A stretch of 64,000 nucleotides of DNA from positions 29,006 to 93,005 of the forward strand of contig CABYCL010000001.1 of NCBI GenBank assembly GCA_902517505.1, written 5' to 3'. A program made the position numbers and the translations under genes. The notes under the pieces were generated by a model. The model had not been told where the DNA came from and ran no database searches. It worked only from the letters and a program-made list of their open reading frames with translations. The stretch comes from an uncultured SAR86 cluster bacterium. Its GTDB lineage: Bacteria > Pseudomonadota > Gammaproteobacteria > Magnimaribacterales > D2472. Position 1 is the stretch's first letter; each line of letters begins with the position of its first letter. Below, one piece after another: positions 52,873-58,908 of this stretch.

Positions 52873-52891
52873 AAATCACTGTTTCCTTCAT

Positions 52892-52906
52892 CTCCACCGT
52901 CACTGA
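52892..52906 (-). repeat. glmS 3'-end-like copy H (TCA GTG ACG GTG GAG; stop not retained)
   Basis: Encodes SVTVE in minus-strand frame; flanked by arm taaatcactgttt 52872-52884. Confidence 0.85.
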
Positions 52907-52932
52907 TTGGTTTTAAACTTTGATTTAATTCT

Positions 52933-53376
52933 TTATTTTCCAGTTGAAATATTTATTGGAATTATAGCGATCTTTAATTTCCAATAATCTCCTCTTTTTA
53001 TTAAAGTTAAATTTGTATCTGTAGATATAAGTTCAACATCTTGGTTGTTAAATCTAGTGAAGTTAGTTTTATATATTGCAAAATCTTCTTGTGAAACTAT
53101 TGGATCTATCGAATTGATTTTTGAATATGCCCAACCTTCTTTTTTTAAGTTTTCATAATTAACAATTTCACTGTAACTTTTTGCAACTACTATTTCATCA
53201 CCAACAAAATAAGTAATTGGTAAATCCCATAGTTCATTAATTTTATTTATATCCATCTCATTGAAATGATAGAAAAAATCTTCGATCACTTTCTCTGGGT
53301 TGTTGTTTGCGTCTTTTGCAAATAACAAAGAAGAAAATAAAAATAAAGTTAATAAAATATTTCTAATATAAATCAC
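52933..53376 (-). CDS. Secreted NTF2/SnoaL-like protein (cassette 7)
   Basis: Signal peptide; VIEDFFYHFNEMDINKINELWDLPITYFVG pattern. Confidence 0.65.
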   Translation of the reverse strand: MIYIRNILLTLFLFSSLLFAKDANNNPEKVIEDFFYHFNEMDINKINELWDLPITYFVGDEIVVAKSYSEIVNYENLKKEGWAYSKINSIDPIVSQEDFAIYKTNFTRFNNQDVELISTDTNLTLIKRGDYWKLKIAIIPINISTGK

Positions 53377-53385
53377 TGTTTTCTT

Positions 53386-53403
53386 CTATTCCACAGTAAC
53401 GGA
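53386..53403 (-). repeat. glmS 3'-end-like copy G (TCC GTT ACT GTG GAA TAG)
   Basis: Encodes SVTVE*; also forms the 3' end of ORF 53386-54483. Confidence 0.93.
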
Positions 53404-54483
53404 GTAGCCATAACCAGATTCTCTTTTTTCAATATGTTCATCAATTGTGGTTTCTATCTTATCAATTGCATCTAAATTGCCGTTCTTATAATCATCTGCT
53501 AATCCAAACAATCGTGCGAATAAAATATTACCGTCGACATCTGAATTAACTTTAATTTTTTTTGATTTTTCTGTCTTTTCTCCCCAAACTACTCTTACTT
53601 TTTTCCAAAAGTCTGAAGTTTCATCCCAATAGGTATATCCTGCCGACCAATCGAAGTTTTCTATTCTTTGATATCTTGCTAAACCAATTTCTTTTGCAAT
53701 AACTTTGTTGTCTAGTGTTGCTTTATTGTTGTTTTGTTCATGAACCCATCCATTCGGGGTAATTGTGTGTATATTTGTTCCAATAACAATATCGTAATCA
53801 TCTCTTATGGTCGCCTCCCTTCTTGGAAGAGGTCTTTTTGTTTCATTACTTGTCCATGATGATGAGTTTGAAAAATGTTTCCATTCCCCAAAACCCTCGT
53901 ATCTTGGTGAATCATCAACTTGATAAACCGTTTGTGACCAAGTTCCCTTTCTATCACTGTAGGATAGATTTTTTCTTTCCCATGTATTTTCTCCAACAAA
54001 CTCATTAATTGAATTATCTTGGTATTTCCAATCTTGTCTCCAGTGTTTAACAACAATAGGATCTGAGGTCGTCCCATCATCTTGTTCAAAGAACATGACC
54101 ATTATGTGTTGCAGACTTATGAAATCCTTTTCATCTTCAACCGCGATTACAAATTCTGTTCCCCATGACTGATAAGGTTTTGGCGGTATATAGTCCTTAG
54201 TGAAACCCATTGTCTCCATGAAATCAAAATTAATTTTATGTTCGCCTTGCATTGCAAGAATTGCTAACCTATCTTTTTCAAATTTGGTCAATTCATCATT
54301 TTGTATTTCCTTCCATAAAGGGTTGGGAGTTTTATCTAAGTCAACATCTGGACCTGAGGAAGTTCCTCCTCTTGGTGTCATCAAGTCTGGATTATCTAAT
54401 TGGGTCCATCCAAATACATAATTGCTATCAGAACTTAAAATTAGTTGACTAAAGAAAATTGCTATAAAGAAAAATATTCTCAT
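53386..54483 (-). CDS. DUF6607-like secreted protein (cassette 6); C-terminus is SVTVE
   Basis: Signal peptide; KHWRQDWKYQD, RKGTWSQTVYQVDDSPRYEGFGEW, RREATIRDDYD; family from memory. Confidence 0.65.
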   Translation of the reverse strand: MRIFFFIAIFFSQLILSSDSNYVFGWTQLDNPDLMTPRGGTSSGPDVDLDKTPNPLWKEIQNDELTKFEKDRLAILAMQGEHKINFDFMETMGFTKDYIPPKPYQSWGTEFVIAVEDEKDFISLQHIMVMFFEQDDGTTSDPIVVKHWRQDWKYQDNSINEFVGENTWERKNLSYSDRKGTWSQTVYQVDDSPRYEGFGEWKHFSNSSSWTSNETKRPLPRREATIRDDYDIVIGTNIHTITPNGWVHEQNNNKATLDNKVIAKEIGLARYQRIENFDWSAGYTYWDETSDFWKKVRVVWGEKTEKSKKIKVNSDVDGNILFARLFGLADDYKNGNLDAIDKIETTIDEHIEKRESGYGYSVTVE

Positions 54484-54489
54484 TGGAAG

Positions 54490-54507
54490 CTATTCTACAG
54501 TGACTGA
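54490..54507 (-). repeat. glmS 3'-end-like copy F (TCA GTC ACT GTA GAA TAG)
   Basis: Encodes SVTVE*. Confidence 0.93.
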
Positions 54508-54515
54508 CTTGAACA

Positions 54516-54927
54516 AAACAGTGATTTATATATCTAGCAGTGGATTTCTTCCCCATTTATTTTCATCTTCTTTTGCTGGAAGCATTACTAAAATTAAAAT
54601 TACGAATATCCCAATAATTGTGATGTAGGATAGTTGCCACCATCCAGAAATGCCTCTGTCTTGCAATCTTCTTGATGTGACTGACACGCTAGGAATAAAA
54701 GTTATGATTTGAAATAGTGCTGAAAATGGTCCATAACCAATTTCTTCATTAAATATTCCTAAAAACACTTCTACAAATCCTAATACGAATGCAATTAGAG
54801 ACACTGAAAGAACAAAATACCAATACTCGCTTCTGCATGCTCTTCCATGAAAATTTTTCCAATTAGTAAAAACTGAAATAAATGATTCTTTAATATTCAT
54901 AATTATCTTCTCTGTAAATCACTGTTT
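54516..54927. repeat. Cassette 5 bounded by perfect 13-bp inverted repeats AAACAGTGATTTA / TAAATCACTGTTT
   Basis: Arms at 54516-54528 and 54915-54927 read directly. Confidence 0.9.
54526..54900 (-). CDS. DUF805 family membrane protein (cassette 5)
   Basis: F.NWKNFHGRACRSEYWYFVLS, SVTSRRLQDRGISGWWQL. Confidence 0.88.
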   Translation of the reverse strand: MNIKESFISVFTNWKNFHGRACRSEYWYFVLSVSLIAFVLGFVEVFLGIFNEEIGYGPFSALFQIITFIPSVSVTSRRLQDRGISGWWQLSYITIIGIFVILILVMLPAKEDENKWGRNPLLDI

Positions 54928-54931
54928 AAAA

Positions 54932-54949
54932 TTACTCCACCGTAACAGA
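54932..54949 (-). repeat. glmS 3'-end-like copy E (TCT GTT ACG GTG GAG TAA)
   Basis: Encodes SVTVE*; terminates a mini-ORF MNNEKPCYDNSVTVE*. Confidence 0.93.
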
Positions 54950-54983
54950 GTTGTCGTAGCAAGGTTTCTCATTGTTCATTGTT

Positions 54984-55274
54984 TTATTCAACGGTTTCTA
55001 CTATATCAACTATCCAGATAGTTCTATCCACACCGTCATTATACTTACGCATTTTTCTTACCTCTACTTGTTCTTCGTGTTTAGTGCAGAACTTAGTAAT
55101 TCTTTCGCCATTTTTTAAGTTAAAAATATCTAGATAATCGTCATCACTAAAATGATATATCTTGAAATCGTGACTTATAATTTTTCCTCCAGTTATTCCT
55201 AATGCAGTGCTAGCACATCCTGTAGTTAAGAAAACAATTAAAGATAAAAAGATTGTTTTTTTAAAGAATTTCAT
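54984..55274 (-). CDS. Small lipoprotein (cassette 4)
   Basis: Lipobox TTGCAS; C-terminus VETVE. Confidence 0.6.
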   Translation of the reverse strand: MKFFKKTIFLSLIVFLTTGCASTALGITGGKIISHDFKIYHFSDDDYLDIFNLKNGERITKFCTKHEEQVEVRKMRKYNDGVDRTIWIVDIVETVE

Positions 55275-55296
55275 CTTAACAAATCACTGTTTAAGA

Positions 55297-55314
55297 TTAC
55301 TCCACCGTTACTGA
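55297..55314 (-). repeat. glmS 3'-end-like copy D (TCA GTA ACG GTG GAG TAA)
   Basis: Encodes SVTVE*; ends mini-ORF MTKILFSVQIHSVTVE*. Confidence 0.93.
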
Positions 55315-55318
55315 GTGT

Positions 55319-55519
55319 ATTTGAACAGAGAATAATATTTTTGTCATTTTTGAACTTTTTATGAAACGTTTTATAAAACTTAATATATTTTTCTTCCATT
55401 AAAAACTATCCAATCATAAGAAGCATAAATATCAATCCAAGGTTAAAACCTATCAATGTCCAAAAGAGTGCTTTTCTATCAAAATTTATTTTTTTACTCA
55501 TTTAATTATCTGTTCAAAT
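55319..55519. repeat. Cassette 3 bounded by 11-bp inverted repeats ATTTGAACAGA / TCTGTTCAAAT
   Basis: Arms at 55319-55329 and 55509-55519 read directly; shortest unit (~0.2 kb). Confidence 0.85.
55406..55501 (-). CDS. 31-aa single-TM microprotein MSKKINFDRKALFWTLIGFNLGLIFMLLMIG (cassette 3; not in ORF track)
   Basis: Direct translation; basic N-terminus plus one TM helix; only ORF of note in the cassette. Confidence 0.5.
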   Translation of the reverse strand: MSKKINFDRKALFWTLIGFNLGLIFMLLMIG

Positions 55520-55537
55520 CTACTCGACAGTAACGGA
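55520..55537 (-). repeat. glmS 3'-end-like copy C (TCC GTT ACT GTC GAG TAG)
   Basis: Encodes SVTVE* despite the most nucleotide differences from glmS. Confidence 0.88.
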
Positions 55538-55620
55538 CTAAGTTTAGTCGGTCTTTTATTCTCCACTATTTCTGTGATGTTTGAAAGGTCTGAAATTTGC
55601 TTGTATAGAGTATACATAAT

Positions 55621-56001
55621 TTAACTTGAGTCCTTTATGAATTCTGCTTTTGTTACCCCAATAGACCTCTTCCAATGCTGGGTTCCGCCCCACAGAAAAC
55701 CTTTTATCTTAATTTTAGTTCTCTTTTTAAGAAGATTATTAAGATCGTTTAGTTGGTCATCATTAAGTATGACGTGAATTTGATCGGTATTTATTGGTCC
55801 AACTCCATCATCAAAGCAGGTTTCTTCATCTAAATGAAAAATATAATATGTTATTTCCTCGCCATGATCCCAAAACATAGTACCTCTAACTTCGAATAGT
55901 TCTCCATTTAAAGGTGAGGAACTCATATTTTGGTGGGTTACACAGTTGTCTGCAAAAAGTGGTATGTTAAAAATCAAAATTAAGAAAAGTAATTTATTCA
56001 T
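55621..56001 (-). CDS. Secreted DUF4431-like protein (cassette 2)
   Basis: Signal peptide; LNGELFEVRGTMFWDHGEEITYYIFHLDEETCFDD pattern. Confidence 0.5.
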   Translation of the reverse strand: MNKLLFLILIFNIPLFADNCVTHQNMSSSPLNGELFEVRGTMFWDHGEEITYYIFHLDEETCFDDGVGPINTDQIHVILNDDQLNDLNNLLKKRTKIKIKGFLWGGTQHWKRSIGVTKAEFIKDSS

Positions 56002-56312
56002 TTTTTATCACAATTAAAATTATGAAGTCCTGCTGATGTAGAAAGTTTTTCGCCATCCTCATACCAAGCAAATGAAGTCTCACCGTTTGTAAAGAGGGTC
56101 ATTCCATATGATGTTGTTAAATGTGGATGAAGGTAGATTTTATTTCCTGAATTACCTATTTCAATAGAAATAGATGTTCTATCTGCGCTTACTGTTGCAT
56201 CAATACTTCCACCACAAGTATATTTGATTTCTTTCTCTGCCTTGCTACAAGAAAGTACGATAAAAAATACAAATATTAAAGGTAAATTCTTTAACTTAAT
56301 TATTTTTTTCAT
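55998..56312 (-). CDS. Small lipoprotein, possibly MliC-like (cassette 2)
   Basis: Lipobox VLSCS; YTCGG...FAWYEDGEKL...NFNC layout. Confidence 0.5.
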   Translation of the reverse strand: MKKIIKLKNLPLIFVFFIVLSCSKAEKEIKYTCGGSIDATVSADRTSISIEIGNSGNKIYLHPHLTTSYGMTLFTNGETSFAWYEDGEKLSTSAGLHNFNCDKK

Positions 56313-56465
56313 TCTTAAATTCTGCCATAACTCCCTATAAATGTCTTATGAATACACATAAGAGACCGCAACAAGTCATGGCAACACCTTGTGACTTCCG
56401 CTAACACGAAAAAATAGGTGGAATTTTTAGTATAGTTTTTAACCGGATATATTTTTAGCGATTTT

Positions 56466-56492
56466 TAAACCCCCCGCAGAATGCGGGATTAA
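56466..56492 (-). terminator. Hairpin CCCGCA-TTC-TGCGGG followed by a short T run (minus strand)
   Basis: AATCCCGCATTCTGCGGGGGGTTTAAAAA on the minus strand, after the first post-glmS cassette. Confidence 0.55.
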
Positions 56493-56511
56493 AATGAAAG
56501 ACGGGTTAAAC

Positions 56512-56529
56512 TTACTCCACCGTGACTGA
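56512..56529 (-). repeat. glmS 3'-end-like copy B (TCA GTC ACG GTG GAG TAA)
   Basis: Identical to the glmS end at all but two wobble positions; preceded by AAG (Lys), giving KSVTVE*. Confidence 0.95.
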
Positions 56530-56536
56530 CTTGAAC

Positions 56537-57078
56537 AAAACAGAGAATAAGATTCTCAATTATCTTCAACCCGTTCAAAAACAACAGAACATCCCCGGTA
56601 CCACTCACCTGATTGTCGATTATTTCCTAGATTGCAAAACATATTAATATCATGACCTCCTTTAGTATTGTTGTCACTGATAAAAAAGAATGGTCTTATA
56701 TCTTTGCTTCTTTGAACTATGTCCTTTGATTCAACAATACCTGAACATACTTTTCCTTGTGATTCAATGTAAGACCCTATCTTATCTGACCACTCTACAC
56801 CAGGGTCTAACCAAATTTGTTTCATTACACTATCTGTGTCTAATTTAACTCTATAGTCTTCATATGATTTATGAGTTCTTACCAAAATCGCCTTGAAGCA
56901 GGCATCCCCTTTTACTTTTCCAGTATTTCTGAAGTCACAAGAGGCAATCCCTCGCCCGTTAAGGGTACAATCATTTTCAATATTAGGTTCTCCACAACTG
57001 GTAAGAAATAGGGTTAATAAAAAGGTAAGATATATCTTATATTTTCTTTTCATAACTTCTCCTTCAATTCTCTGTTTT
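56537..57078. repeat. Cassette 1 bounded by perfect 12-bp inverted repeats AAAACAGAGAAT / ATTCTCTGTTTT
   Basis: Arms at 56537-56548 and 57067-57078 read directly. Confidence 0.9.
56556..57053 (-). CDS. Hypothetical lipoprotein (cassette 1)
   Basis: Lipobox FLTSCG; AAGGAGAAG ribosome-binding site upstream. Confidence 0.6.
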   Translation of the reverse strand: MKRKYKIYLTFLLTLFLTSCGEPNIENDCTLNGRGIASCDFRNTGKVKGDACFKAILVRTHKSYEDYRVKLDTDSVMKQIWLDPGVEWSDKIGSYIESQGKVCSGIVESKDIVQRSKDIRPFFFISDNNTKGGHDINMFCNLGNNRQSGEWYRGCSVVFERVEDN

Positions 57079-57081
57079 ATT

Positions 57082-57099
57082 CTATTCCACCGTGACTGA
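57082..57099 (-). repeat. glmS native 3' end, copy A (TCA GTC ACG GTG GAA TAG); attTn7-type region
   Basis: Reference copy of the SVTVE* repeat family. Confidence 0.95.
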
Positions 57100-58908
57100 T
57101 TTCGCTAAGTTTCTTGGTTGATCAATATCAGTTCCTCTTAACAAAGCAACTTCATATGAAAGTATCTGAAGAGGAATAGTATAAATAATTGGCGTGAGAA
57201 TAAAATCACATTTTGGCATATTGATTAGTTTTCCTGATTGTAAATCCATTGTTATTGATGGATCAGCAAACACATAAATGGTTCCACCTCTTGCTTTAAC
57301 TTCCTCTAAATTAGAAACAAGCTTTTCTGCGATTTCACTCTCTGGCGCTAATGCAATTACTGGCATTTCCTCATCAATTAATGCTAATGGTCCATGTTTT
57401 AACTCGCCTGCGGGGTATGCTTCAGCATGAATATATGAAATTTCTTTTAATTTTAAGGCTCCTTCTTTTGCGATCGGATAAAAAATCCCTCTACCCAAGA
57501 ATAATGCATTGTCTTTGTTAGCTATTTCTGGAGCAATTTCTATAATGGTATCTTTTAATTTTAGAGTTTCTTCAACCGTATCTGGCAAAGATCTTAAGGC
57601 TGTAATAACTCTTGTTCTTAATTTCGGATTTATTTTTCTACTTTTTGCTAAAGATAAGGCTAATAGCATTAAGGCCGCAAGTTGCGTTGTAAAAGCCTTT
57701 GTTGATGCAACTCCAATTTCTGGACCAGCATTTGTAAAAATTGAATAGTCAGATTCTCTTGCAAGTGAGCTCGTTGGGACATTGCATATGCATAAAGTTG
57801 AAAGATAGTTTTTTTCTTTTGCATATCTTAGTGCAGCTAAGGTATCAGCGGTTTCTCCAGATTGAGAAATTGTTACTAATAAGGAATCTTCATCAACATG
57901 TGGGTTTCTATATCTGTATTCTGAGGCATAATCAGTTTGTGTTGGTAATCCTGAAATCGATGAAAACCAATTAGCGCCTACTCTTCCAGCATGCAAGCTA
58001 GTTCCACAAGCAACAATTTGTATTCTCTTAACTTTTTCAAATAATTCAGATGATCCAAGTCCAAATATATTATCCAAAACATCTTCTCCGCCAACTCTTC
58101 CATCAATGGTATTCAAGATAGCGTCTGGTTGCTCATAAATTTCTTTTTCCATGAAATGTTTATAGTCACCCTTTGAAGTTGATTGGCTAGAAATATCAAT
58201 CTGTGTAACTTCTCTTTGAACCTCTTTCTTTTCTGCGTCATAAATCGTATAGCTTTCAGAAGAGAGCTCAGCAACATCTCCATCCTCAAGAAAAATAAAT
58301 TCATTAGTTAATTGTCCAATTGCTAATGGATCTGAGGCTGCCAAAAATTCATCAACTCCCACTCCTATTAAAAGAGGAGACTTGCTTCTTGCTATCGTTA
58401 CATTTGTATCATCTTCTTTGTCTATTGCTGCAATTGCATATGCCCCTTCAATTTTTTCTTTTGTTAGGTACATTGAATCAAGCATTGAATTCCCTTTGTT
58501 AAGAAAATATTCAAGCATATGTGCAATGAGTTCAGAATCAGTTTGTGATGAGAACGTATAGCCTTCTTTTTTAAGAAATTCTTTTAAATCTAAATAATTC
58601 TCAATAATTCCGTTATGAACTATGTATACCCTTTCATTAGACTTATGTGGGTGAGCATTTTCTTCAGAAGGCTCTCCATGTGTTGCCCATCTGGTGTGAG
58701 CAATGCCTAGTTTGCTTTTTGGTTTTTCAGTAATCATCTTTTCTTCTAGCAAATTAACTTTTCCTAGAGTTCTTAAATGAGCAATCTTGTCAATTTGATG
58801 GAGGGCTATTCCTGCAGAATCATAGCCTCGATATTCCATTTTGTGCAAGCCTTGGACTAACAGTTTTCCTACATTACGGTTTGAAGCAGCCGCTATTATT
58901 CCACACAT
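57082..58908 (-). CDS. glmS: Glutamine-fructose-6-phosphate aminotransferase (isomerizing)
   Basis: MCGIIAAASNRNV N-terminus, two SIS domains, C-terminus LAKSVTVE. Confidence 0.98.
   Translation of the reverse strand: MCGIIAAASNRNVGKLLVQGLHKMEYRGYDSAGIALHQIDKIAHLRTLGKVNLLEEKMITEKPKSKLGIAHTRWATHGEPSEENAHPHKSNERVYIVHNGIIENYLDLKEFLKKEGYTFSSQTDSELIAHMLEYFLNKGNSMLDSMYLTKEKIEGAYAIAAIDKEDDTNVTIARSKSPLLIGVGVDEFLAASDPLAIGQLTNEFIFLEDGDVAELSSESYTIYDAEKKEVQREVTQIDISSQSTSKGDYKHFMEKEIYEQPDAILNTIDGRVGGEDVLDNIFGLGSSELFEKVKRIQIVACGTSLHAGRVGANWFSSISGLPTQTDYASEYRYRNPHVDEDSLLVTISQSGETADTLAALRYAKEKNYLSTLCICNVPTSSLARESDYSIFTNAGPEIGVASTKAFTTQLAALMLLALSLAKSRKINPKLRTRVITALRSLPDTVEETLKLKDTIIEIAPEIANKDNALFLGRGIFYPIAKEGALKLKEISYIHAEAYPAGELKHGPLALIDEEMPVIALAPESEIAEKLVSNLEEVKARGGTIYVFADPSITMDLQSGKLINMPKCDFILTPIIYTIPLQILSYEVALLRGTDIDQPRNLAKSVTVE

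Follow-up and report, generated by a model that had tools for sequence, protein, structure and literature searches.

Downstream of glmS in an uncultured SAR86 bacterium, compact genes stand in tandem, each separated from the next by a copy of the codons that end glmS itself, which raises the question of how this array was assembled and what moves its parts. SAR86 bacteria are among the most abundant uncultured bacteria of the surface ocean, with streamlined genomes of ~1.1–1.5 Mb and few obvious mobile elements. Here we analyse the array within a 64,000-nucleotide stretch of DNA (the window), which belongs to a 1.06-Mb assembly that is 83% complete, together with the corresponding region of its relatives. 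The results suggest that the array works much like an integron, but that its builder was probably a different enzyme class, the large serine recombinases (LSRs).

All features of the window array lie on the minus strand. The glmS ORF (57082..58908) ends in AAA TCA GTC ACG GTG GAA TAG, encoding KSVTVE*, and these last codons are the predicted attB and cassette entry point. Seven tandem cassettes follow, and the window contains seven copies of a core site, ANTCNGTNACNGTNGARTA, each on the minus strand, where 0.00 are expected. Site S0 (AGTCACGGTGGAATA; 57083..57097) forms the junction between glmS and cassette 1, with the predicted crossover dinucleotide AC at 57093-57092. Further core-site matches lie at S1 (56513..56527), S2 (55521..55535), S3 (55298..55312), S4 (54933..54947), S5 (54491..54505) and S6 (53387..53401), and the array ends at an eighth, distal and degenerate site, S7 (AGTGACGGTGGAGAT; 52890..52904).

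Cassette 1 (56523..57092) encodes a 165-residue protein with a lipoprotein-like N terminus (56556-57053), placed between a 5′ arm (57065-57082) and a 3′ arm (56533-56550) that match as inverted repeats at 15 of 18 positions in a fixed 18-bp comparison. Cassette 2 (55531..56522), with ORFs at 55998-56312 and 55621-56001, has arms at 56495-56512 and 55541-55558 (14/18), and its arm type, CGGTCTTTC, is that of the recombinase element in genome G031 described below. Cassettes of the CGGTCTTTC/ACCCAAC type have a longer imperfect inverted end that includes CCGCATTCTGCGGGGG (L049, L053, L056, L064 and window positions 56444-56512). Cassette 3, only 223 bp long (55308..55530; arms 55503-55520 and 55318-55335, 15/18), has as its sole product a 31-residue membrane-like peptide, MSKKINFDRKALFWTLIGFNLGLIFMLLMIG (55406-55501). 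Cassette 4 (54943..55307) encodes 96 residues (54984-55274) and has a 5′ arm at 55280-55297, whereas its 3′ end carries no matching arm (8/18). Cassette 5 (54501..54942) encodes a DUF805 membrane protein (54526-54900) between arms at 54915-54932 and 54511-54528 (13/18; inner arm 11/11). Cassette 6 (53397..54500) is without matching arms (4/18), and its DUF6607 ORF (53386-54483) runs through the next site, so that it ends in an SVTVE* of its own. Genes in L056, L058, L064, L072, L074, L118 and L123 likewise read in frame through the next site, which copies SVTVE, the GlmS C terminus, onto unrelated proteins. Cassette 7 (52900..53396; arms 53369-53386 and 52910-52927, 12/18) encodes a weakly matching NTF2-like protein (52933-53376).

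An earlier note on this DNA had reported cassette-specific inverted arms, and re-reading the coordinates bore out the perfect pairs in cassettes 5 (AAACAGTGATTTA, 54516-54528; TAAATCACTGTTT, 54915-54927), 1 (AAAACAGAGAAT, 56537-56548; ATTCTCTGTTTT, 57067-57078) and 3 (ATTTGAACAGA, 55319-55329; TCTGTTCAAAT, 55509-55519), as well as the imperfect pairs in cassettes 2 (14/17 matches) and 7 (11/13). Five of the seven window cassettes thus have matching inverted arms (12–15 of 18 bp), compared with a mean of 5.1 matches at random positions of the same region (P(≥11) = 0.0045; P(≥13) = 0.00025). In cassettes 4 and 6, which the earlier note had left out, the 18-bp comparison found no matching arms. 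The claim that arm sequences differ between cassettes needs to be divided: an arm does pair with its partner in one cassette and not with the arms of others, but those of cassettes 1, 3, 5 and 7 are variants of one family, AACAGWGAWTT, rather than unrelated. The concern that such arms might also surround non-cassette genes throughout the genome fell away, as AACAGTGATTTA is mostly confined to the array, with four of its five genome-wide copies inside it.

The array is not peculiar to this genome. A strict version of the site is found in 131 of 200 relatives, usually in several copies on one strand. We scanned the glmS end and ~12 kb downstream in 100 genomes (1.12 Mb) with a weight matrix, and of the sites obtained 395 lay on the glmS strand and 3 opposite to it; a rare inverted site within an array, with arms on both sides, lies at position 595, minus strand, of L042 (G004). 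Merging neighbouring sites gave 292 intervals with a median of 620 bp. Ninety-seven arrays begin at glmS, each with 0–10 cassettes, and SVTVE* is kept in all 97 whose first site is glmS. The cargo comprises 450 ORFs, 385 of them in the glmS sense (385:65), which fall into 265 gene families, 200 of these singletons; its domains include restriction-modification enzymes, HNH nucleases, DUF805 and small membrane proteins.

Single-gene cassettes of such diversity in one orientation are what would be expected if a single recombinase (a tyrosine enzyme of the IntI or Xer type, or another) read a folded single strand through the pairing of its arms alone, as happens with attC. The predicted circular junctions do fold well (z −3.1 to −7.1), and the arms covary, as described below. 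The core, however, contains no GTTRRRY, and no Xer-type or other tyrosine recombinase was found in the 100 arrays; where genomes have PF00589 matches, nearly all have just two. From these recombinase counts we rejected a dedicated tyrosine integrase as a driver, and we consider the folded-strand explanation unlikely on further grounds that come from the position of the crossover and the sequence of the arms.

The crossover was mapped with pairs of sites that share an upstream cassette and have different downstream ones, and with the reverse pairs, at an identity of at least 94%. At position 3, identity was 0.78 among upstream-sharing pairs versus 0.29 among downstream-sharing pairs; at position 6 it was 0.29 versus 0.56, and at position 12 the downstream-sharing pairs reached 0.91 versus 0.49. 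In one family with nine neighbours, several sites read CAATC CGTC|AC and then continue as GGTG, TGTG, GGTG, TGTC, AGTG and so on. Because the site switches from following the upstream partner to following the downstream one across positions 3–6, the exchange falls in the dinucleotide AC. These alignments show that the units are bounded at AC (positions 4-5) in AGTN-AC-NGTNGARTA, such that sequence through AGTN is retained by the upstream partner, whereas sequence from NGTN onward arrives with the downstream cassette. With the exchange in AC, each cassette supplies the last GlmS codons and the stop. AC is also the exact dyad centre of the arms, and the two ends of each cassette are matching halves of a single recombination site that has AC as its axis of symmetry. 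The earlier proposal that the paired ends define the mobile unit is accordingly right as to the pairing of the arms and wrong as to the boundary, which is the AC inside the core and not the arms, so that each cassette carries half a core at either end. A crossover at the dyad centre would fall in the hairpin loop of a folded strand, which adds to the case against an attC-like reaction.

The mapping also bears on three other explanations. The first takes the arms as transcription or RNA features, such as processing stems or regulator sites, and it has in its favour that they immediately precede start codons and immediately follow stop codons. It is already contradicted by the mapping, in which one cassette with the same arms adjoins various neighbours and the switch at AC is clean, and by the passage of cassettes between families; we regard it as hardly credible. 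The second invokes a tyrosine integrase, including a hijacked host XerC/XerD, acting on double-stranded sites with a 6–8-bp overlap around AC. Inverted core elements flanking a central spacer would suit such an enzyme, as would the behaviour of positions 6 and 9, which follow the downstream cassette less closely (0.56 and 0.51) than expected of a strict 2-bp crossover and could have been partly reshuffled in a heteroduplex overlap. These two positions never follow the upstream cassette, and the only explanation that we offer for their looseness is that extra mutation may occur at degenerate positions. Since the partner switch is confined to positions 4-5, upstream-sharing pairs show only baseline identity at position 6, which would fall inside a common overlap, and the arrays hold no integrase gene in genomes with Xer-type copy numbers only, a tyrosine integrase is distinctly unlikely.

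The third explanation is a family of site-specific DDE transposons that would have terminal inverted repeats, duplicate a 2-bp AC target and choose the glmS end as Tn7 does. Terminal inverted repeats are indeed present, and Tn7 uses the conserved glmS end as a safe harbour (attTn7). A transposon, however, would have no need of element ends that carry the target core on either side and restore GlmS, as these do; no transposase occurs among the 25 most frequent of 79 Pfam families (113 cassette proteins), and LSR genes abut the site in two array elements. Such a transposon family is very improbable.

The arms themselves point to recognition of sequence. Across the family-wide sample, the two arms of a cassette match at 11.0 of 18 positions, compared with 7.03 ± 0.15 after shuffling of partners and 7.0 where the arms compared flank one site but belong to different cassettes. 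Arm-matched cassettes number 143 among 249 unique ones, against 33 expected (maximum 44). Single linkage yields ~25 arm types, the largest cluster of which holds 80 of the 143 arm-matched cassettes; a stricter match to the commonest type, AACAGTGATTT, retains 64 cassettes with 67 gene families. Counted from the central dinucleotide, the excess of matching is zero at half-site positions 1–10, reaches 0.43 at position 12 and 0.31–0.51 at positions 15–26, and is clear to position 28 and gone by 31. Covariation in homologous cassettes, which the earlier note had put forward as a check, was seen in a cassette for a 42-residue microprotein, in which both arms change together from L262 (AGTGATTTA/TAAATCACT) to G063 (GGTGCATTA/TAATGCACC) and G077 (GTGCGTTA/TAACGCAC). 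Pairing alone would not require arms to be re-used sequence types, nor matching to end at about position 28. Re-used types, together with covariation that ends at the length of an attP half-site, point to sequence recognition by a dimer. The LI integrase recognizes a 25-bp half-site on attP, with its ZD motif at 16–24, and the span of arm covariation (12 and 15–28) lies close to that motif, a comparison of position only with one published attP structure (PMC3783163).

Decay along the array is consistent with entry at one end. Arm matching falls with rank from glmS (rho −0.24, p 7e-5), as does the quality of the sites (rho −0.16, p 0.007), which is what would be expected if cassettes enter beside glmS and old ones are trapped.

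Comparison between genomes shows that cassettes move between species. Homologous cassettes are on average 94.2% identical, versus 71.2% for the preceding 250 bp of glmS (ungapped), and 47 cassette pairs cross families, with up to 99.5% identity. Within the window, cassettes 4 and 6 have counterparts in G010 (99.7% and 98.0% identical) and cassette 7 has one in G004 (98.9%). The window genome and G002 have glmS genes that are 95% identical and zero cassettes in common. A scan of GTDB genomes with the commonest arm plus core matched mostly SAR86, and also detected cassettes at the glmS end in one SAR202 (Chloroflexota) record, a Xanthomonadales MAG, two Pseudomonadales MAGs and a SAR92 record. 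At the SAR202 locus, glmS is divergent (LAKTVTVE) and the neighbours differ as well. Individual non-SAR86 records could possibly reflect misbinning of MAGs, yet in each the cassette is joined to a divergent glmS. Four of these records have in common a 195-bp cassette family. It encodes the 42-residue membrane microprotein mentioned above, MEGLAVMGFVFGMVGVVALVRLEKLTKTLKEKGILEEDYKEE and relatives (L233, L242, L248, L262 and L037 (G007 775-972)), and occupies the glmS end in records from SAR202, Xanthomonadales, Pseudomonadales and SAR86.

Which enzyme might act on these sites? Serine recombinase domains were found in 7 of 204 genomes of the order, two of them within glmS arrays, and none in the window genome (83% complete). 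In G031, a 6-kb unit directly after glmS, with arms AGTTTAGTCGGTCTTTC, encodes a 551-residue LSR with Resolvase, Recombinase and Zn-ribbon domains, whose stop codon lies 27 bp from the site; the unit also encodes a Rep-like protein (REP_ORF2/G2P match). In G092, the array contig opens with the C-terminal portion of another LSR (31% identical to the first), whose end lies ~40 bp short of a site with arm type TTTGCAGAATT, unlike that in G031; the N-terminal 406 residues of this LSR are on another contig, and the link between the two contigs is our reconstruction. The Zn-ribbon matches of both array LSRs are below the Pfam cut-off, and the best PDB matches of the LSRs are SPbeta YokA and the TP901-1 integrase. 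The C-termini of both are homologous to that of a third relative, an internally deleted remnant in G206, from a different gammaproteobacterial family, that abuts a degenerate site. The right arm at this remnant was rejected as an arm type of its own, as it belongs to a downstream restriction-modification unit, and we count G206 only as a related LSR beside a remnant site.

Other candidates were set aside. The LSRs of G030 and G037 (525 and 519 residues; L197 8636-10213, L198 322-1881) have no flanking glmS-type sites. The two are 52% identical, lie away from glmS and represent a second type, with a GGIEPPTSC-like string at the C terminus and a conserved neighbour of ~166 residues. Solitary Recombinase-domain (PF07508) proteins in ~13 arrays are small HTH proteins without a catalytic domain. 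Several have restriction-modification cassettes next to them; the proteins recur in the glmS-proximal cassette or terminally in 5-kb restriction-modification cassettes (L049 11569-11970 in array orientation, L122, L086, L050, L066, L081, L085, L087, L112, L116, L119 and L133), and are perhaps controllers. No LSR for the commonest arm type was found, and site-pattern and LSR searches for carriers in IMG/VR returned only chance sites (palindromic arm match 2–8/18) or distant LSRs without sites.

Taken together, the data make it likely, in our judgement, that the cassettes are non-autonomous and are moved in trans by LSRs that share glmS as attB. In favour of the LSRs, the G031 and G092 genes each abut the site with a different arm type. 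Against them, serine recombinase domains are scarce, two contigs each hold a part of the G092 gene, and ~25 arm types on one attB are, to our knowledge, unusual for LSRs. An excised cassette would be a circle with an attP of ~50–56 bp, which the LSR would join to the glmS attB through a 2-bp crossover. In each half-site, the catalytic and recombinase domains would contact the conserved inner ~10 bp, which would match attB, and the outer arm, at positions ~16–26, would be the motif of the zinc-ribbon domain. If that outer motif differs between recombinases, this would account for arms that are alike in one cassette and unlike in different ones. The majority of cassettes would be passengers without a recombinase, moved by the LSR of a visiting element; new ones would enter beside glmS, and older ones, flanked by P-type halves of other types, could no longer leave and would decay distally.

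The earlier suggestion that a circularised cassette would place the SVTVE core at the centre of an attP-like dyad agrees with this LSR mechanism. Its alternative of an attC-style single-strand fold is not the reading that we prefer: the junctions fold as any inverted repeat would, so that folding is compatible with the data yet not discriminating. It is conceivable, though fairly unlikely, that one recombinase reads the pairing of the arms, on a folded strand or at a matched dimer site, and not their sequence; any gene with matched arms and half an SVTVE core could then become a cassette, in a second, independently evolved capture system of the integron type gated by the glmS end, which is universally conserved.

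The glmS hotspot is a concrete route of gene flow in SAR86, including for restriction-modification and other defence genes, with cassettes shared at 94–99% identity across families. If the LSR mechanism is true, the array would be a miniature serine-recombinase analogue of the integron, with one coding-end attB for many attP types, and its natural series of matched attP arms would make recombinase specificity directly testable. A literature search, with most subscription papers and preprints outside its scope, found no earlier description of glmS cassette arrays.

Among known systems, SCCmec and the related ECC elements are nearest in mechanism, and integrons are nearest in organisation. As proposed for the glmS arrays, SCCmec/ECC elements (Ccr LSRs, rlmH 3′ end) combine an LSR with an attB where a conserved housekeeping gene ends; they have att sites of about 50 bp with imperfect inverted repeats and, in composite elements, extra att copies, and some ECC elements carry a rolling-circle rep gene (PMC6222049), to which the Rep-like gene of the G031 element can be compared. 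By contrast, the target here is glmS and not rlmH, the units are 0.2–6 kb (against 21–78 kb for ECC), mostly one gene without a recombinase and up to 10 per array, ~25 arm types meet one attB, and the hosts are SAR86 and other marine bacteria. Phage-type LSR sites (A118/LI, TP901-1 and SPbeta YokA) share the 25-bp half-sites, the crossover at a central dinucleotide and recognizable Resolvase, Recombinase and Zn-ribbon domains, and differ in that the cassettes here are passengers without a recombinase and form arrays. Tn7 has in common the conserved glmS end as a safe harbour, but its chemistry differs from that proposed here, and so does its position, as insertion here takes place inside the terminal codons, which are restored. 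Integrons (IntI, attI and attC) likewise consist of tandem, compact single-gene cassettes, mostly in one orientation and with very diverse cargo, that enter at one end and decay distally; here, however, there is no IntI, the coding end of glmS stands in place of attI, the crossover lies at the dyad centre, and in place of attC boxes the core is NANTC NGTNACNGTN GARTA.
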